From assembly GCF_030817355.1 (NCBI RefSeq), contig NZ_JAUSZH010000001.1, positions 2,970,501-3,034,500 on the forward strand: DNA of 64,000 nucleotides, given 5' to 3'. The stretch is from Streptomyces sp. V1I1. Lineage in GTDB: Bacteria; Actinomycetota; Actinomycetes; Streptomycetales; Streptomycetaceae. Under the pieces are notes generated by a model. That model saw nothing but the letters and a program-made list of their open reading frames with translations, was not told the origin of the DNA and ran no database searches. The translations under genes and the position numbers were made by a program. This document shows positions 37,211-48,000 of the stretch, one piece after another. The first letter of the stretch is position 1. Each line of letters begins with the position of its first letter.

Positions 37211-37966
37211 TCAACTCAGGTCGACCTCGACCCCAAATTCACGCAGGACGGAAATCGCGGATCCGAGAACGCCCGCGCCGACATTCTCCTGGGACTCTGC
37301 AAAGTTCTGCCAGACGAGTCGAAACTGAGCGGCATTCGACCGACTCGACGCCAGACAGTCGGCAAGCGCATCGAGATTCGAACCGAAATAACCTCCCGGA
37401 CCATTCACAGCCTCCCCGAGAGCGCAATAGAAGCCCGCTTTGTCGGCCAGGCCGCTGCCGTCAATCACGCACGTCGCATCCTCGCCGTAGCGTTTCGCGT
37501 TCCGACCGGATCCGAACCAGACGGTCTGCACAACGTGCAGCCAACTGCCATGGGATTCCGAGGGGAATCTTCGCCACTCACCCAACTCGGTCGGGTGCCC
37601 CGCAGCCCAAAGCTGCCAGAACTTTCCCGCCCATGAATAAGGAAAGGAATAGCCGAAGAAAGATGCTTCCACATCTGTGGCGCCGCTGACACGTTCACTC
37701 GCGCGGGCCGCCCTCAAGTCGACCCTGCCGATGTAGTACGTACCGATCACTTTGCCCTGCACGTCCATCACCTGCAGCCGCACATTCTGAAGGAGTCTGG
37801 GGACCTGATCCGGTGCCATCGAGGTTCCGATCAGGCCGATGGCACCCGACTCCTCCTGTGACGAGTCGACGAAAAATCCCTCGATGTCGTTTGAGGCAAG
37901 AAACACCCGCTGCGATTCATCATCGACAAAGCGATACAGGGGGCTTACGCCAGTTTCACTTCCCAT
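37211..37966 (-). CDS. Barstar-domain immunity protein
   Basis: The 251-residue protein ends in a barstar-like domain of about 90 residues: CVIDGSGLADKAGFYCALGE, then GYFGSNLDALADCLAS and RLVWQNFAESQENVGAG. The Asp pair in NLDALAD matches barstar Asp35 and Asp39, which contact barnase. The first 150 residues (LYRFVDDESQRVFLASNDIEG ... GKFWQLWAAG) form an extra domain seen in some immunity proteins but not in free barstar. It lies directly downstream of the Rhs gene with the barnase-type toxin end, so it is the cognate antidote. The ATG at 37966 matches the domain start; a GTG at 38008 is an alternative but lies inside a hairpin. Confidence 0.85.
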   Translation of the reverse strand: MGSETGVSPLYRFVDDESQRVFLASNDIEGFFVDSSQEESGAIGLIGTSMAPDQVPRLLQNVRLQVMDVQGKVIGTYYIGRVDLRAARASERVSGATDVEASFFGYSFPYSWAGKFWQLWAAGHPTELGEWRRFPSESHGSWLHVVQTVWFGSGRNAKRYGEDATCVIDGSGLADKAGFYCALGEAVNGPGGYFGSNLDALADCLASSRSNAAQFRLVWQNFAESQENVGAGVLGSAISVLREFGVEVDLS

Positions 37967-37978
37967 GCCACGGAGAAT

Positions 37979-38030
37979 AACAGGTCCCCGTCGGTCCCTG
38001 CCTTGCACCGCGGACCGACGGGGACCTGTT
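37979..38030 (-). terminator. Hairpin between Rhs toxin and immunity gene
   Basis: AACAGGTCCCCGTCGGTCC and GGACCGACGGGGACCTGTT form a perfect 19-bp stem with a 14-base loop, ending 12 bases before the immunity start codon. It could be a partial terminator that lowers immunity expression, or a leader structure controlling translation. The run after it is not a clear U-tract. Confidence 0.65.
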
Positions 38031-38085
38031 CAATCCGCTCGATTACCTTCGCTTCTTCACCTTGGGCGGCTTCGGCCAGCCGTCG

Positions 38086-41000
38086 TCAGGGAAGTGTGGC
38101 GCGGTAAACTTGTGGATCGTCGTGTAATGATCGATCGTCCACCATGACCTTTCGGCCGTCACGGAGGGTCTTGATCAGAATCCGGGCTTCTCCGGGATTC
38201 GAGGCACCGGGAACGTCGTACTCCCAGGCATCTTCCCAGAAAGCGTTGTGGCCGTCTTCCCCACGGAATTGCTGATGCTGCCCGGTATTAGCGTTGAGAT
38301 GCTTCGTTCCTCCCCCCGACCTGATTTCCTCATAGGCATTGACGAAGGCGTTCGAAAGCCCCTGGGGAAGCTGATCGGAGAGTCGCTTCGGACAATTCGC
38401 GTTCTGGTTGTGGACGAGGAGCGGAGTGTCGGCAGCCAGCACATAGAAGCTGTGAATGCCGCTGACCGTCAGGTCGTGGGTCCGCTGCCTCTTCTCGAAG
38501 TGGCGAACACCGGCCACCGTCGCCGTCTCACCGTCGGGCTTGCGCAGCTCCATGCCGGGCTGCAAGTCACCCGCCTCGATCCACGCGCCCTCGGACTCCA
38601 CCCAGAACGGGTGGGTCGTCGTGGAAATCAGCGCGGCCGGCTGCTCGGCTTCGCCCTTGATCGTGAGGTCGACGAACTGCTTGTCGTCCTCGGTGACGAT
38701 CGTGCCGACGACCTCGCGAGCCGCGGTTTCACCGGTCTCGGGATCGGTGGCCATGATCTTGTCGCCGAGCTGGATCTCTTCGATCGGTTTACTGGAACCG
38801 TCCGCGAGGAGAACAGGAGTTGCTGGGAGGAAGCTGTGTGAAATGGGGCAGCTTCCGCCTTGTTTCTTGAATGCCGCCTTGGCCTTCTCCAGTTTCTCCT
38901 TGGCCTTCTTGACCTTGGACGAACCGTCCCACGCCGCCTTGAAAGCACCGACCAGGTCATCGAGATGACCCCAGATCTTCTTGGCCAGGTCGGCGGCCTT
39001 GCCCCACCTGAAGGCGTACTTGGTGATCAGCTTGCCGACGAGTCCACCGACGAATGAGGTCGCCACATTGAGGGCGGTCTCACCGCAGGCCGACAGGTTG
39101 CCGGAGGAGAAGCAGTCCAGGGCCGCGTCGACCCCGAGTTCCTCGCTGGCGATCGCCGTCAGGGCGAGGGCAGCGTCCTTCATCCGCTGCTTCGACTTGC
39201 TGTAGTTCGACTCGGCCTGGTCCAGTTCATCCTGGGCCTTGTTCACCGCCGCATCGGGTTTGTTCAGCCCGCCCAGGACCATCCCAGGAATCAGGATGAC
39301 GCGGAGACCGCTGGGGTCGGACAGCGTGACCGGGCTGTTGTTGGCGTACGCGTAGCCGTTGATCTGCTGCGGCTGGGTGAAATCGATGAGCGGGTCCGGC
39401 GAGATGAACTTGCCCAGCACCGGGTCGTACTGGCGGGCTCCGATGTTCGTCAGGCCGGTCTGTGCGTCGATGTCGCCGCCGACGAAGCCCTTCTCACTGG
39501 TCCAGGGGCCGGTTGGCTCTGTGCGCTCGACGCCGAAGGGGTCGAGACGGCGCTGGGAGACGGCACCCGTCGTAGCGTTCACGGCCAGCTCGCTGGTGCC
39601 GTGATGGTCGGATGCGAGGAAGGAGAGGTCCCCGTTGTCCGTCCGCATGGCGAGCGATTTGCCGGCGAAGCCGTAGTAGCGAGTCGCTTCGATCGTGCTG
39701 CTGCCCTTGGCCTGCCGGAGCTCCATGCCCGGCAGATAGATGGTGGTTCCGCCCGCGTCCTGACGCTGGACCCTGTTGCCGCCGACGTCGTAGAGGTACT
39801 CCGTCGTCTTGCTGTCGGCCTCCGTGGCCTTGGCGAGCTTGCCTTCGGCGTTCCAGTCGAGTCGCTGGGTGTCACCGCCCAGGACACGCCGGTCGGTGTT
39901 GCCGGAGGCGTCGTACCCATAGGTCGACTGACTCTCGCCCGTCGGGGTCTTCTCGACGACCTTGGTCACGGCGTGCGGACCGGCCGCGCCCTCACCGTGG
40001 GTGTAGGTGCGGGTGACGTCCTTGGCCGCGTTCAGGCCGGTGTCGTGACGGACCTCCTTGGTGCGGTTGCCGATCGCGTCCGTCTCGTAGGACTTCCAGT
40101 AGGCGGCAGGGCCGCCCAGCGGGGACGCTCCCGGAGCCGCGGCGCAGGCGGACGGTGAGGAAGCGTCGAGCTTGCTGCCGACGGTTCCCGATCCGGTCGC
40201 CGTGGTCGCGGTCGCGGCGGGAGTCCACGCGTCGGAGAGCCGTTGTCCGTTGTCGTAGGCGAAGCACTGCACGTCGGGCGACGCGCCGGCCCTGTCCGAG
40301 ATGGACAGCACGTTGCCGGTCTGGTCGTACGCGTAGTCGGCGGACTTGGCCGGTCCGGTGACGCCCTCGATGTCGACGACCGAGCGCTTGAGGCGGTCGG
40401 TGCCCTTCTCGTGGTGGAACGTCTGCCAGTTCTTCTTGCCACTGCCCGTGGACAGTTCGAGCTGCTGGATCTGGCTGGTGGGCGAGTAGACGGTGTCGGT
40501 GACGTATGAGGTCTTGCCGGTCATCGACTTCGGACGCTGCAGGTCGTCGTAGCCGAAGGTGATGGCCTCGCCGGTAAGGCCACCGGCGGCCGGCATCCCC
40601 TGGCCGTTGACGGTGCCGTCCGGGTTGTACGTGGTGGTGAAGACGTACGTGCCTGCCAGCTTGTCCTGCGACGCGGGCACCGAATACGCCGTCTTCAGCG
40701 GCCGGTACAGCGCGTCCATGTCCTGCGTGACGGTGGAGAAGTACTCGGTAGCGCTGGTGTAGCGCATCGCTGCCCAGGCCTCGCCGAGCCAGCCCGCCTT
40801 GTCGTACTTGATCTCGGTGAGCTTGGTGCCGGTGGTCGGCTCGCCCTCCCAGGTGGTGACGGGGCGGCCCAGCTTGTCGTAGACCGTGGAGACCTTCTTG
40901 CCACGGCCGTCGGTGCTGGAAGTCGCCCGGTCGACCGCGTCGTACTCGAACGTGGTGGTACCGCTGTCCGGATCGACGCTCTTGGTCTTGCGGCCCTGCT

Positions 41001-44000
41001 GGTCGTACTCGTACCGCCAGAGATTGCTCTTGGCGTCGGTGACCGACGCCAGTTCGCCGCTGGGGGTGTACGCGTACTTGGTGACGTCGTATCCGGTCGC
41101 GGGACCGTCCGGGTCCGGGCTGTCGCCGTTGTAGTGGCGCAGCTCGGTGGTCGCGCCCGCCACGTTGCGGATCACCGTGGTCGGGACACCGCCCTTCGGC
41201 GGGTCCATGTGCGTGCGGTCGCCGTCGTACGTGAACTTGGTGCGCCACTGTTCGACACCGGCGACCTGGAAGATGTCGGCCGTCTTGCGGCCCATTCCGT
41301 CGTACGCGTAGCGGAACTGGGTGCCGACCTCGCCGTTGGCGACGATCAGCAGCTCGTTCGAGGGCGCACCGACCGCGTTGTAGGTCTGGTTGCCCAGTTT
41401 GACCTTGCCGGTGCCGTCGTAGAACGAGTCGCCGACGAGCCGGCTCCCGTTGGGGCCCTCGCTCTGCAGCTGTCGTGGACGCAGCAGCGCGTCGAAGAGC
41501 TGGTACTCGACGCCGTAGCCGCCACCGTTCTCGATCTTCTCGGTCTTGATGGCGACCGGCTTGTCGCGGCGGACGTCGTAGGTGTACTTGATGCTCGGCG
41601 TCTGTGTCCTGGCACGGTCCGCGAGCCACACCGACGAGACGCGGCCGAGTGCGTCGAGCGCGATCTCGGAACGTCTTCCGTTGGCGTCGGTCTGGCCGAT
41701 GGAACGGCCCCAGGCCGGTGCGTAGTCGGTCGTGATGGCGTGACCGAGCGCGTTGGTGACCTTGACCTTGGAGATCAGGCCGTTGGCGTCGGTGTACTGC
41801 GTGCTCACCGAGGTGCCGACGGCGTCCGTCTCGGACGTCGGGCGTCCGAAGGCGTCGTAACCGATCGTGCCCGTCACCTCATAGGTGGCGGTGGTCCCGT
41901 CGTGGGACTTCAGCCGCTCGGCCTTGGTCTCGTCGCCCTTGGTGGGTGCGGCACCCAAGGCTCCACCGTCGTAGTAGGTGCGCGTGTCACCGATGACCTG
42001 CGTCTTGCGGTCGGTGGCGGCGCCGCAGCCGACCGAGACGACCTCGGTGCGTGACGGCAGTGTGTAGAGGTTCGCGGCCGGGTGGTCCGCATAGGTCATA
42101 CGGGTACAGGTGTCGTCGGCAGCCGTGGACAGGTCCGCAGAGTCGTCGGTCTGCAGCAATCGGCCGGTGCGGTTCGAGGTGTCGAACGTGGAGACCGACT
42201 TGGTGCTCCGCCAACCGCCGCCGGACAGCGCGGTGTAACCGCGGGTGGTCCGTGTCTTGACGATGGTGGCCTTGGTCGTGCCCCAGGACTCGGTCTGGGT
42301 GGCGGTGTCGTGCTTCCATGGCTCGGAGATCGCCTTGGAGGCGACCTTGGCACCGTCGTAGGTCTGTGCTTCGACCTCGAAGCCGTTGTACTCCTTGTGG
42401 CCCGTGTACTTGGTGCCGGTGGAGTCGGTGACCTCCTCCGTGCGCGTACCGCCGTCCGGCAGCTTGTCGCCGTTCAGGCCCTGGAGGTAGGTGTAGTCGA
42501 TGCGGGTCGACATGGTCTGGCCGTTGCCACTGGTCACCGAGACCTTGCCATAGCCCTGCCACTGGCCCCAGGTGAGGAACTTGTCCTCGGTCATACCGTC
42601 GGGCTCGGCCTTCCGCCAGCCGGCGTTGCCCTGGTAGTCGTACCGCGTGACGAGGTCGTCGGCGCCCCCGGTGCGGTCGGTTTCGGTGATCTCCTTGACG
42701 ACGTACTTGTGGAACCAGTCCGTCTTCGGGTCGATGCTGCCCGGCGGCGCCCACACGACCGGGTAGCAGCGCTTGACCGACTCCCCCGGCTTGGGCAGTG
42801 CGGCGGCGGTGCACTCGGTGGGTGCATAGGTGACATCGAGCTGGGCACCGGTCTCGCTCAGCACGGTGGCCAGGCGGAAGCGGTGAATGGCGTCGATGTT
42901 GTCCGTGTCGCCGGCGACACGGTTCTTGAGGTGCACACCTTGCAGCTCGACCGAAGGCATCTTGATGCTGCCGCCACCGCCCTTGCCCTCGTGGTCGATC
43001 TTGTTCAGCCACAGGGTCTTGGTGTCGTCACCGTTGTCGGTGAAAGTGTGCGTGAACGTCCACAGGTCGACATCGGCGTAGGCGTCGGCCGCGGCACCGG
43101 AGTTCATCTGGGTGGTGACGCCGGTCAGCCGCTTGGTGGTGAAGAAGGTCTGGCTGGCCTGCGTCGCGGTGCACTTGGTGTTCGCCTTGCAGAACCGGTC
43201 GACGGGGGTGTCTGGCCAGCGGGCTGCGTTGGCGGTAGTGAACTTGGACTCCGCACAGTCGAAGCCGGCGTCCGGCAGGCAGCGCTCGGCCGTGCTGAAC
43301 ACCACGCGGGCCGGAGCCTTGGTGGTGTAGACGGCGTTTTCGCGCTGGCCGTAGTCGATGCGCTTGAGGTAGCCACCGCGGTGGTATTCGGTGCCGTTGA
43401 CGTCCGTCTTGCCGTTGAGGGCGTAACGGTTGGTCTCTGCGCCGTAGAAGTAGGACATCACGTTGCCGTGGGTGTCCTTGACGTGGTCGAGGTTCCAGCG
43501 CCAGGCCTGCTTGCAGTGGGCGTTGGTGAACGTGGCGTTGTAGCAGGGCTCACCGGAGTTGTTGCCGAAGACCGGAGCCGTCCAGGTGGACGAGGTGGTC
43601 TCCTTGCCGGTGGTCCAGCCGGGCAGCTTGTTCAGGCCGAACCAGTACTCGGTGCCGTCCGTCGTCGTGAGCTTCCAGTGCTCACCGTTGTTGTCGCCGT
43701 TGTCGGCACCCGTGAGTTTGGCGATCTTCGCACCGTTCTCCGAGGCGAGGTGCCATTCCTTGGTGACGTCGTCCTGGATCAGCTCGCCGGACATCCCGTT
43801 GAGCATGATCGTGGCATTGTCGAACGCCCAGCACTGCTCGGCGGAGGTCTTCTGGCCGTCCTCGGAACAGGACTTGTAGCGCCGCTCGATGAATCCAGGC
43901 TCCCAGCCGAAGCCCTCACCTATCCAGGAGCCCTGGTTGTTGGTGGCTGCCGTACGACCGTCCGCGGACTGTGAGGAGTAGCCCAGAGCTACTTCCGGGC

Positions 44001-44892
44001 TCAGACCACCCGGTGTGGGGACGGTGCGGATCGGATAGTCCCAGGAGAACCCGCCCGCGGAGTTCGCCACCGACCAACTCGCCGACGGGGCAAGGCTGGT
44101 GGCCTTGTAGTCACCCTTGGACGAGGAGTCGCCCGCCGCCACCGCGAAGACACTCGCGGCGCCCGCGGACGGGGCCGCGGAGACCTGCGCGGTCATGGAC
44201 CGGGTGGCGGGGTCGTTCTTGAACGGGATGTGCTTGGGAGTGGCGGGACAGCCCTTGCTGCCCGGCAGCTGGGTAGCGGCACACGCGGGCAGCTCGATCA
44301 GCTGAAGCCGGGAGCCGTAGCCGCCGCCCATGCCTTGTGCGAACTTCGAGTAGTCCAGGGAGAGTTCGACCGGAGCCGCTCCCTTGGCACCGTCCGCACG
44401 CTTGACGGTGAGGAGCGCGGCGCTGCCCCACTTCGTCGCTGCCTTCTGGCCCAGCGACGTGACCTTGACCTTCGAAGGCGGCGGGGCAGCGGCGCTCGAT
44501 GCGCGGGACTTGCCAGACACCGCGGCCGGAGCCACGGTGATGGGGAGCCCGCCCGCATCGGCCTCGGCGCCCATTGCCGGTGCGGCGCGCCGGGAATCGG
44601 CGGGTGGTGCCGAGAGCTTGACTACCGCGCTCCCGGCCTGCGGCCAGAGCGCCGGGTCCAGGGTCCTTGCCGAAGCCTTGCGGACCGGGTCGGCAGGACG
44701 GGGCTTGGTCTTGGCGTTCTTGCCCTTGGCCGGGTCGGAACTGCCGGGCACACCGGGCCGCTTGGCGCCCTCGGGTTTCACCGGTATCGCCTCGGCGGTA
44801 GCGGCCGACAATGACACGGCCAGGGCCAGGACAGTGGCGGCCACCACATGCCGGGGCATGCGCGAGGCCAGCAGTCTGCCACGTAAGGACAT
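38086..44892 (-). CDS. Secreted Rhs polymorphic toxin with Hint domain and barnase-type RNase end (frameshifted)
   Basis: The 2268-residue protein has a signal peptide (SRMPRHVVAATVLALAVSLSA), a long body of RHS/YD repeats (YEYDQQGRKTKSVDPDSGTTTFEYD and many others), and the RHS core end QINGYAYANNSPVTLSDPSG. Residues 2015-2162 are a Hint autoprotease domain (SFLPATPVLLADGSSKPIEE ... LLVHN). The last 106 residues are an RNase N1/barnase-like toxin with the general-base Glu in WEDAWEYDVPG and an Arg in EARILIK. The current frame then ends in VDDRSLHDDPQVYRATLP, including a rare TTA. Dropping one G at 38139-38140 gives VTIDHYTTIHKF (catalytic DHY His) and a stop at 38043. So the toxin is inactivated, or the base is an error. 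Confidence 0.92.
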   Translation of the reverse strand: MSLRGRLLASRMPRHVVAATVLALAVSLSAATAEAIPVKPEGAKRPGVPGSSDPAKGKNAKTKPRPADPVRKASARTLDPALWPQAGSAVVKLSAPPADSRRAAPAMGAEADAGGLPITVAPAAVSGKSRASSAAAPPPSKVKVTSLGQKAATKWGSAALLTVKRADGAKGAAPVELSLDYSKFAQGMGGGYGSRLQLIELPACAATQLPGSKGCPATPKHIPFKNDPATRSMTAQVSAAPSAGAASVFAVAAGDSSSKGDYKATSLAPSASWSVANSAGGFSWDYPIRTVPTPGGLSPEVALGYSSQSADGRTAATNNQGSWIGEGFGWEPGFIERRYKSCSEDGQKTSAEQCWAFDNATIMLNGMSGELIQDDVTKEWHLASENGAKIAKLTGADNGDNNGEHWKLTTTDGTEYWFGLNKLPGWTTGKETTSSTWTAPVFGNNSGEPCYNATFTNAHCKQAWRWNLDHVKDTHGNVMSYFYGAETNRYALNGKTDVNGTEYHRGGYLKRIDYGQRENAVYTTKAPARVVFSTAERCLPDAGFDCAESKFTTANAARWPDTPVDRFCKANTKCTATQASQTFFTTKRLTGVTTQMNSGAAADAYADVDLWTFTHTFTDNGDDTKTLWLNKIDHEGKGGGGSIKMPSVELQGVHLKNRVAGDTDNIDAIHRFRLATVLSETGAQLDVTYAPTECTAAALPKPGESVKRCYPVVWAPPGSIDPKTDWFHKYVVKEITETDRTGGADDLVTRYDYQGNAGWRKAEPDGMTEDKFLTWGQWQGYGKVSVTSGNGQTMSTRIDYTYLQGLNGDKLPDGGTRTEEVTDSTGTKYTGHKEYNGFEVEAQTYDGAKVASKAISEPWKHDTATQTESWGTTKATIVKTRTTRGYTALSGGGWRSTKSVSTFDTSNRTGRLLQTDDSADLSTAADDTCTRMTYADHPAANLYTLPSRTEVVSVGCGAATDRKTQVIGDTRTYYDGGALGAAPTKGDETKAERLKSHDGTTATYEVTGTIGYDAFGRPTSETDAVGTSVSTQYTDANGLISKVKVTNALGHAITTDYAPAWGRSIGQTDANGRRSEIALDALGRVSSVWLADRARTQTPSIKYTYDVRRDKPVAIKTEKIENGGGYGVEYQLFDALLRPRQLQSEGPNGSRLVGDSFYDGTGKVKLGNQTYNAVGAPSNELLIVANGEVGTQFRYAYDGMGRKTADIFQVAGVEQWRTKFTYDGDRTHMDPPKGGVPTTVIRNVAGATTELRHYNGDSPDPDGPATGYDVTKYAYTPSGELASVTDAKSNLWRYEYDQQGRKTKSVDPDSGTTTFEYDAVDRATSSTDGRGKKVSTVYDKLGRPVTTWEGEPTTGTKLTEIKYDKAGWLGEAWAAMRYTSATEYFSTVTQDMDALYRPLKTAYSVPASQDKLAGTYVFTTTYNPDGTVNGQGMPAAGGLTGEAITFGYDDLQRPKSMTGKTSYVTDTVYSPTSQIQQLELSTGSGKKNWQTFHHEKGTDRLKRSVVDIEGVTGPAKSADYAYDQTGNVLSISDRAGASPDVQCFAYDNGQRLSDAWTPAATATTATGSGTVGSKLDASSPSACAAAPGASPLGGPAAYWKSYETDAIGNRTKEVRHDTGLNAAKDVTRTYTHGEGAAGPHAVTKVVEKTPTGESQSTYGYDASGNTDRRVLGGDTQRLDWNAEGKLAKATEADSKTTEYLYDVGGNRVQRQDAGGTTIYLPGMELRQAKGSSTIEATRYYGFAGKSLAMRTDNGDLSFLASDHHGTSELAVNATTGAVSQRRLDPFGVERTEPTGPWTSEKGFVGGDIDAQTGLTNIGARQYDPVLGKFISPDPLIDFTQPQQINGYAYANNSPVTLSDPSGLRVILIPGMVLGGLNKPDAAVNKAQDELDQAESNYSKSKQRMKDAALALTAIASEELGVDAALDCFSSGNLSACGETALNVATSFVGGLVGKLITKYAFRWGKAADLAKKIWGHLDDLVGAFKAAWDGSSKVKKAKEKLEKAKAAFKKQGGSCPISHSFLPATPVLLADGSSKPIEEIQLGDKIMATDPETGETAAREVVGTIVTEDDKQFVDLTIKGEAEQPAALISTTTHPFWVESEGAWIEAGDLQPGMELRKPDGETATVAGVRHFEKRQRTHDLTVSGIHSFYVLAADTPLLVHNQNANCPKRLSDQLPQGLSNAFVNAYEEIRSGGGTKHLNANTGQHQQFRGEDGHNAFWEDAWEYDVPGASNPGEARILIKTLRDGRKVMVDDRSLHDDPQVYRATLP

Positions 44893-45001: not shown

Positions 45002-48000
45002 CTACAGGTCCGGGTCGCCGGTCAGCTGGTTCATCCGGCCGATCGCGGTCGCGTCCGCCGCACCCGCGTACACACGCACCTCGTCGATCGAGCCTGCGAA
45101 GTACTCACCGCCGCCGCCCAGCGCCGAGCGCCCGACCTGGAGGCCACCGCTGGAGGCCCAGGTGGTGTGGTCGAAGAAGTGCTCTTCGTCCTCCGACGCC
45201 GTGGCGACCGGCTGGCCGTCGACGTACAGATCCACCTGGTGGGTGACCGCGTCGTAGACCACCGCAAGGTGGGTCCCCGACAGCGAGACCCCGGGGAGGG
45301 CATCGGCGTCGGTCACCGTGGTGACCTTCGCCGTACCACTGTCCGCATCGGTCAGCGCGAGCTCCCACTGCTTGGTGGCGGCCTGGAAGCGCACCGTGAT
45401 CCGGTCCGCGTTCCGGCCCGGCAGGGAGAGCACCGTCTGCGACTTCTCCGCGTCCGGGGTGGTGAGCTTGGCTCGTACGGCGACGGTGTAGCTGTCCGCG
45501 CCGGTCACCACGGGGTTGGCCGTGCCGGCCCAGTCGTCGGTGCCGTCCAGGGCCAGGCTGCCGCCGTCGACCAGCGCCGCGTCGTCGAACTCGTTCGCGG
45601 GCTTGTAGATCGTCGCACCGTGCAGCGCCAGCGGCTGGCCGCCGGCCTGGACATTGGCGGAGTTGCCATCGGCGCCGACGGCCTCCAGCGGCCAGTAGCC
45701 CTTGCGCTGGGGCTTGACCGTGATCAGCTGAGCGATCTGGGTCTGCGGCAGCACCCGGTCGTACGCGCGTACTTCCGCGAGGTCGCCCTCGAAGTTGTCG
45801 CGGTAGCCGCTCTTGGCCAGCACACGGCCGATCTGGAGGCTGCGGATCGAGGACCACGCCGTGTGGCGCGCGGTCTTGGCCGCCTCCTTGTCATTGACGT
45901 AGAGCCGCAGTTCGGGACCGGCTGCTGCGTAGGCGTCGAAGACGCCGGTGAGCAGCACCCACTCATTGGCCTTGACCGGGTACGTGGCTGCCGGCGCGAC
46001 TGCCTTCCAGCTGGTCATGGCGTCGACGTCCATGTCGGGCGTGGAGAAGGCCCATGCCTTGTCCGTGGCGTCGTAACCGAGGACGAAGCCCGGCTCACCG
46101 GTGCTGTCCTGGCTGATGACGGCCATGTCCCTGTTCAGGGCCGTGGGCTTGACCCAGGCGCTGACGGAGAAGCTCCGGCCGGTGTCCATCACCGTGCCCC
46201 ACGAGTCGAGGTAGGCGTTCTTGGTGCCGTCGAAGTGCGCGGCGCCGTCGGCCACCCCGCCCGGTCCTTCGGCTCCGAAGCTGACTCCGGTGCCCGGGCG
46301 GCCCGGGTGGCTTCCGCTGTCGGAGCTGTCCTGGGCCAGTTCGCTGCCCTGCGGATCGTCCAGATTCCACTGGCCCGCGGCCTGCTTGCCGTCGGTGACC
46401 AGGAACTCGTAGTGGGCGGGAACGCTGGAGTTGTTGGCGCCGTCATAGGCCTCGACGGTCACCCAGTGACGTCCGGCCCGGGGAGGATTCCAGGTCACGG
46501 TGGCCGGTGCGCCCCCAGTGACGGTGACCGTCTTCCTGGCCTCGCCGTCGAAGACGTACCGGTACTCCTTCACGTCCTTGTCGGACGCGGCGAAGGTGAA
46601 CTTGCCGACCGTACCGATGCCGTGGTGCCACATGTCGTCGTCCGGGTACTCGGGCGAGGCGACCTTGGGCGCCTTGGGCCGGGCCGCGTCGCGCATGACG
46701 GCGCAGCGCTGCGGGGTGCCGTCGGAACTCCACGGGCCCCAGGCGTCACCGTCGAAGGCCCGGGCCTGCCAGGTGATCAGGGTGCTCGCGGGGATCGTGG
46801 GTTTGCCGGCGGGCTGGGTCACGGTGTGGGTGAACACAGTGCCCGCGTTGGGCGACTTGTAGCCGGTCTCCGCGAGGTAGTTCTGCTCGACGCCGTTGGC
46901 GTCGTTGTAGAACACCTGGAACTGCATCTTCACCTGGTCCGCGTAGGCGGAGCCGTGGTCCGGGTCGCGCGCCTCGGCGCGCAGCTGCGGCAGCACATCG
47001 GTGTACTTGCGGGTCGCGGGGTCCCAGTTGCACGGGCCGCCGGGGTTGGTCGACATCAGCTTGTAGTCGACCTGCCGGGGCGGGGTGTTGTACTCGATCT
47101 TCAGGAAGGTGTTGCCGCAGATCCGCTTCCAGCCCGGGTAGTCGGACTCGTCCTTGGCCCGCAGGCCCAGGGACATGCTGGACCAGCTGTCGGCCGTGGC
47201 CGCCTTGACCTCGTTGAGCAGCTCGCCGTTCTTGATGTTGAGGTTGGCGCTGCCGCTGCAGGTCGTGGGCGAGATCTTCGTGTCCATCGTGGCCAGGTAG
47301 TCCGACCAGTCGTCCTTGGTGTTGCCCCAGCTGCTGGTCTTGGTGACCGTGTAGTTCTTGCCGCCGATGCGGTAGAGATCGACGGGTTCGGCCTTGGCGT
47401 CGGCCCAGTACACGTGCTCCACGCGGGCCGAGAACTGGGCGCTGAGGATCTGCTTGCCCTTATAGGCGGACAACGGGAACGTGAACAGCAGACGCCGTAC
47501 GCCGATGCCGGCGCAGGTGGTCGGGTTGTAGTTGATTGGGCACTTGCCCATGCCGGCGCTGCCCGAGTACGCCCAGTCCTGCTCGTTGGGCATGCCGGAC
47601 ATGACGCCCGTCCACGCGGAGCGGTGGATGGTGCGCGGGATGGGGTCGACCACGACGGGGTAGACGGTGTCCTTGCCGCGCAGCAGCTTGGTGTCCGGGG
47701 TCAGGGTGAGGCGGTTCTTGGAGACGGCGAGGCCCACGGATGCCTTCCGGCCGCCGTCGACGGCCTACAGGGCGGCCTTGGGCGCCACAGGTCCAGCCGC
47801 GGGTCCAGCCGCGGGTCCAGCCGCGGGTCCAGCCGTGCTTCCCGTCGCGCGGGTGCCGGAACCGGCCGAGCGGGCCGCGCCCTTGGCCGGCTGGGTGGTC
47901 TTCGCCGAGGGGCTGGGGGCCGAGTCCCACATCACGGCCTTGGCCGCCTCGAAGACGGTGCCGCCGACCGCCGCGTCCACGGCGCGCATACCGCCGCCCG

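Follow-up and report, generated by a model that had tools for sequence, protein, structure and literature searches.

A Streptomyces Rhs toxin gene whose RNase-like tip is probably broken by a small frameshift next to an intact barstar-type immunity gene

Introduction

The closest described counterparts of the locus considered here, a Rhs toxin gene and the immunity gene next to it in Streptomyces sp. V1I1 (assembly GCF_030817355.1, contig NZ_JAUSZH010000001.1, positions 2,970,501 to 3,034,500; hereafter the window, that is, the whole stretch of 64,000 nucleotides (nt) that was analysed), are the Tox-Barnase toxins and Imm-Barstar immunity proteins tabulated by Zhang et al. 2012 (PMC3482391). 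In the relevant passages of that source, Imm-Barstar is said to have a specific association with barnase-like toxins, and the table there also lists Imm-Barstar beside Ntox21, in a row that includes HINT; the conserved residues of Tox-Barnase are given there as H, H, [ST], FP and [STD]. As in the tabulated Tox-Barnase/Imm-Barstar pairs, the toxin of the window stands at the C-terminus of an RHS protein, a Barstar immunity gene comes next and actinobacteria are among the carriers, and the HFPD shared by the relatives of the window's toxin recalls the FP motif. However, the protease in the Tox-Barnase row is PVC-metallopeptidase rather than HINT, and the Glu and Arg of the present toxin are not among the conserved residues listed there. 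The present locus further departs from these pairs in that the toxin tip is out of frame and in that approximately 165 residues precede the Barstar domain of the immunity protein; unlike RNase Sa, Sa2, Sa3 and barnase, the annotated frame of the window's toxin is without the His strand.

Damaged toxin genes of this general sort have been recorded elsewhere. In the passages of PMC4287609 that concern Neisseria lactamica, mafB toxin genes are reported as frameshifted in a sequenced strain, and the likeness to the present case lies in polymorphic toxin genes carrying a frameshift in a sequenced strain; the toxin system and the phylum are different, and those passages do not state which part of mafB was lost. 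In the passages retrieved from the literature on Rhs toxins, frameshifts and barnase-barstar pairs, on terminators or hairpins at immunity genes and on orphan or frameshifted Rhs tips (including PMC13018210), the case reported here is not described.

We consider it likely, at roughly two chances in three, that the barnase/RNase Sa-like tip of this Rhs/PT-HINT toxin has been broken by a small frameshift, with the barstar-type immunity gene left whole. Under this reading, a small event that shifted the frame, most likely a deletion and presumably recent, would have broken the tip about 33 codons before the old stop; the shell would still be made and processed by the HINT domain, and would carry an RNase that, once released without its catalytic His strand, would therefore be inactive. 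The immunity gene would still shield the cell from neighbours bearing an intact toxin of the same kind, and would have been kept because of that protection. At the level of sequence, the frame switch, the intact relatives and the intact immunity gene are all present, and the RNA-cutting tip of the toxin is probably dead. The locus would represent a stage in the decay of a competition toxin at which attack is lost and protection kept. Unless the assembly is in error, such decay is real, though of an ordinary kind.

The end of the toxin domain lies in another frame

The Rhs protein carries RHS/YD repeats (PF05593; expectation value, E, 3.7e-26 in Pfam), and its small C-terminal toxin domain starts after the LLVHN of the PT-HINT domain, which is the layout of RHS polymorphic toxins, with a processing domain followed by a toxin (coordinates in Table 1). 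The annotated minus-strand frame ends in VMVDDRSLHDDPQVYRATLP, as stated in an earlier note on this DNA, and the same DNA in the alternative frame named in that note gives a DHY-containing tail and stays open to a TAA at 38043-38045. Profile A2, built from the toxin domains of four intact relatives, matches the genome of the strain as two abutting pieces in different frames (Table 1), with no further match anywhere in that genome at E <= 0.001. Searched alone with tblastn, the conserved-frame tail finds four distinct relatives under six locus identifiers, two places being counted twice; the matches span 22 residues at 68-73% identity (E 4e-9 to 2e-8). The in-frame piece, searched apart, finds the same four relatives, L007 at 40% identity over 86 residues and the other three at 50-53% over 94-95. 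The tail as annotated weakly resembles only the out-of-frame reading of relatives (L004, 50% over 18 residues, E 0.11; L007, 41%, E 0.017), and in alignments A3 and A4 it has neither the GWT nor the PHFPD..W block seen in the relatives.

The pattern of substitution and of codon use points the same way. Mismatches between the tail and 20 relatives number 75, 110 and 218 at codon positions 1, 2 and 3 of the conserved frame, counts that are not independent, as the relatives share ancestry. Under a codon model that uses no homology, the tail up to the TAA scores -19.2 when read in the annotated frame and -0.2 when read in the conserved one; for the 279 bases upstream the two scores are +1.4 and -46.2; absolute scores near zero are not by themselves a strong sign of coding, and the evidence lies in the contrast between the frames. 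Up to its own stop, the annotated tail scores -8.2. The Viterbi path of the model shifts frame at 38134 at a penalty of 1e-3 only, with no shift there at 1e-4 or 1e-6, a weak sign when taken alone.

Relatives, profile, alignments and structures agree with the earlier note in placing the frame change near 38134-38142, where it removes the His-bearing strand, and in finding the Glu and Arg upstream in the annotated frame. Other details of that note need correction. The event had been described as one extra base; at the site, a G-rich stretch, the aligned DNA of the window instead falls short of that of four relatives found by DNA search (L004, L011, L006 and L007), by a length not divisible by three. 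The loss of the catalytic His holds in so far as the His strand lies in the other frame, but the annotated tail does contain one His (His2257), out of register by one residue, with Leu2256 occupying the Arg+19 position of the annotated protein. Similarly, the rare TTA that had been pointed out in the out-of-frame tail is present at codon 2256 but is not unique, as codon 3 (44884-44886, minus strand) is also TTA. TTA is a rare leucine codon in Streptomyces, and a gene that contains it may depend on the bldA tRNA; the Rhs gene of the window, with TTA at codon 3, may do so as well.

Relatives of the toxin

A scan of named genomes with two peptide patterns, one of which runs across the intact junction, yielded 22 loci with the toxin domain; the scan favours intact copies and is blind to copies as diverged as that of the window. 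The domain is read in a single frame to ...HY..I..F..PHFPD..W in 20 of these loci, and an end like that of the window, in the RSLHDDP frame for which the earlier note had suggested that relatives be searched, occurs at none of the 22. L034 (Chitinophaga), one of the two exceptions, is distant and its end is changed. At L020 (Streptomyces sp. JHA26, L020:6001-6279), the toxin cassette is present as a fragment that breaks off after ...GDSA, with unrelated sequence from there on, and a related immunity gene lies 3-4 kb upstream of the fragment. The four relatives found by DNA search are each read in one frame, and three of them are among the 22 loci. One place, L011:1249-1617 (the same as L005 and L016), holds an open reading frame (ORF) of 122 amino acids (aa) that consists of the toxin domain and a short lead only, like a stand-alone toxin cassette.

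With the C-terminus of the window as query in a protein search, only the window protein itself was matched; among 41 candidates of Rhs length the sole close relative of the toxin was again the window's own protein, and no toxin candidates of about 72-227 aa were found by protein search. Of 392 genomes searched at the DNA level, 8 gave a match, and of 296 in another such search, 17 did, the genome of the strain being included in both; neither search returned an extended close copy of the end of the toxin, the best non-self identity being at most 79% apart from matches of 29-41 bases. In the genome of the strain, no other intact copy of the domain was recovered by DNA search or by profile; a second DNA match there was rejected as a toxin copy, being the pairing of the stem-loop described below with its own inverted arm. 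The annotated C-terminus is not the evolved end of the toxin, which helps to hide the domain from Pfam and from protein searches.

Fold and class of the domain

Three residues of the relatives, E69, R81 and H100, are invariant in all 21 aligned rows, and we take them to correspond to the catalytic Glu, Arg and His of barnase. The structure model of an intact relative appears to resemble RNase Sa and barnase among the solved structures with which it was compared, at 14-21% identity to the structures of RNase Sa, Sa2, Sa3 and barnase, and a sequence search of the PDB with the profile gave one weak match (E 0.069, positions 10-48 only). Resting on fold and motif, the enzyme class of the domain is probably barnase/RNase Sa-like. 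The model of the window's C-terminus as annotated has a predicted local distance difference test score (pLDDT) of approximately 40 over its last 12 residues, and does not show a complete RNase in the short frame, the finding for which the earlier note had asked that structures be inspected. No toxin domain is named in the window protein by Pfam or NCBIfam, and the intact domains of the relatives are also unnamed by Pfam; the toxin-domain family seems to be without a curated Pfam model.

Weighing the explanations

Several observations weigh against decay of a barnase-like tip. Foldseek returned no significant PDB match (best E 0.94), and no Pfam RNase or Ntox family was found at E values up to 1 in the proteins of four relatives or in the C-terminus of the window. 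The model of the window is poorer partly from divergence and from a thinner alignment (13 rows compared with 21), and its body scores lower too. The pattern that spans the junction tilts the figure of 20 of 22 in favour of intact copies, and protein searches found no toxin partner for the immunity proteins that are 88-94% identical to that of the window, so that the closest relatives of the toxin itself are missing from the comparison. With a His in the annotated tail only one residue out of register, loss of activity is something that we infer from sequence. Finally, the bases at the site rest on one assembly. This last point also opens the way to a sequencing or assembly error, with the gene intact in the living strain and the shift an indel of the assembly, a reading that we regard as unlikely although it carries an appreciable chance: the difference sits in a G-rich stretch, and apart from the shift the tail shows no damage and the immunity gene is whole, as would be expected of a working pair. 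Against it, the genome (8.3 Mb) is assembled in two contigs and is 99.71% complete, and few frame switches seem to occur in the central part of the chromosome, to which the window belongs. In a scan for such switches over 389,850 coding bases of 464 kb, 23 of 99 were kept at a penalty of 1e-6, none of them in the window; the 7 samples nearest the chromosome ends hold 20 of the 23 and the 13 central ones (L071-L083, 260 kb) the other 3, which suggests few indels mid-chromosome; at 1e-4, 36 of 150 were kept, 5 of them in the window and none at the toxin site. Errors, pseudogenes and unusual genes look alike to the scan. Its filter, which keeps a switch if the old frame stays open for more than 60 nt further, dropped 76 of the 99 at 1e-6, in which the old frame closes within 60 nt as it does at gene overlaps, and would drop the toxin site too (46 nt). 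Because the filter is blind to the toxin site, we raised the chance given to an error and lowered that of decay to the figure stated above.

The earlier note had left inactivation, a switch and an error side by side; of these, inactivation is favoured over error, and the switch finds no support. Programmed +1 recoding or a phase-variable switch, yielding two tips from one gene, would suit both the offset of the conserved frame by one base and the fact that the two frames stay open together for about 90 nt, 43 upstream and 46 downstream of the site, but we hold it to be extremely improbable, given that 20 of the 22 loci need no shift and that, by eye, the 10 bases on either side of the site hold no unstable repeat tract (homopolymers do not exceed 2 bases, and no unit is repeated three times or more; a CGAT is present in two copies). 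A pause at TTA codon 2256 would also come too late for recoding, because that codon stands at the place of the catalytic His. That the new tail is instead a functional variant end, the frame as annotated making a different working toxin, is very unlikely as well: the codon-model score of the annotated tail up to its stop, its resemblance to nothing but out-of-frame readings of relatives, its low pLDDT and its missing GWT and PHFPD..W blocks all argue against such an end.

The immunity gene and the stem-loop before it

The immunity gene of the window is the sole Barstar match in the genome at E <= 0.001, and its protein has 508 homologues, the best of them 94% identical. The immunity queries bore extra codons before the ATG at 37966, eight in the Pfam run and one in the NCBIfam, homologue and neighbour runs. 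In 20 of the 22 loci of relatives, a match to the immunity protein starts 65-333 nt past the toxin stop, a related gene following the toxin there as the immunity gene does in the window. Immunity proteins P0003 and P0004, which are 94% and 88% identical to that of the window, occur in JGI data.

Between the toxin stop or stops and the immunity start lies a strong stem-loop (Table 1). The 90 nt past the toxin stop fold with z <= -2.7 (60 shuffles) in 19 of 23 loci, that is, the window and the 22 relatives, the exceptions being L017, L020, L021 and L033; L034, among the 19, has no immunity match and another stem shape. In the two clades that were aligned (8 sequences and 21 pairs; 10 sequences and 17 pairs), two-sided changes occur at 3 pairs in each, and L017 and L033 retain most of the stem of their own clade. 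The stem sequences differ between the two clades and from that of the window, whereas place and shape are kept. The stem-loop may be a terminator or an attenuator; a promoter and terminator scan found nothing, the terminator pattern of that scan requiring a T-run that is absent from the stem-loop. We put forward, tentatively and with more doubt than confidence, that a conserved stem-loop ends or attenuates the toxin transcript throughout this family of toxin-immunity cassettes, so that immunity would be expressed alone and the toxin would be free to decay. If this were true, the stem-loop would let the toxin decay, as in the window, without loss of protection.

Genomic setting of the Rhs gene

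Table 1. Coordinates of the features of the Rhs toxin and immunity locus in the window
Feature	Positions	Strand	Basis
Barstar-type immunity gene, 251 aa, intact, C-terminal Barstar domain	37211..37966	-	PF01337, E 1.4e-14
Strong stem-loop between toxin stop(s) and immunity start	37979..38030	-	90 nt after TAA: -50.5 kcal/mol, z -5.8 versus 60 shuffles
Out-of-frame remainder of toxin domain (DHY strand, PHFPD..W)	38046..38141	-	tblastn to relatives; profile A2 positions 94-116, E 7.1e-6; codon-position pattern; open to TAA 38043-38045
Annotated tail VDDRSLHDDPQVYRATLP and TGA, an out-of-frame reading of the DNA of the conserved tail	38086..38142	-	Resembles only out-of-frame DNA of relatives; pLDDT about 40 over last 12 residues
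Rhs/YD-repeat protein ORF, 2268 aa as annotated	38086..44892	-	ORF list; RHS_repeat and PT-HINT above Pfam cut-offs, TEN_YD-shell below
In-frame part of C-terminal RNase-like toxin domain, with Glu2224 and Arg2237	38143..38406	-	Profile A2 positions 1-93, E 4.5e-25; Glu and Arg columns invariant in alignments A3 and A4
PT-HINT pretoxin processing domain (residues 2030-2162), LLVHN at its end	38407..38805	-	PF07591, E 1.4e-18
Rhs-associated core (residues 1784-1863)	39304..39543	-	NCBIfam TIGR03696, E 1.4e-17 for the whole protein

A second Rhs/PT-HINT gene of the genome, encoding 2461 aa, lies at L081:6757-14142 (plus strand) on contig C1 near 5.63 Mb, and the C-terminal end of its product has neither a Pfam name nor a match to the toxin profile. 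The N-terminus of the window's Rhs protein resembles a signal peptide, as judged by eye only. The gene upstream of the Rhs gene (45002-47737, minus strand) has a 911-aa product that contains two Laminin_G_3 stretches and may be the partner of the Rhs protein at the surface.
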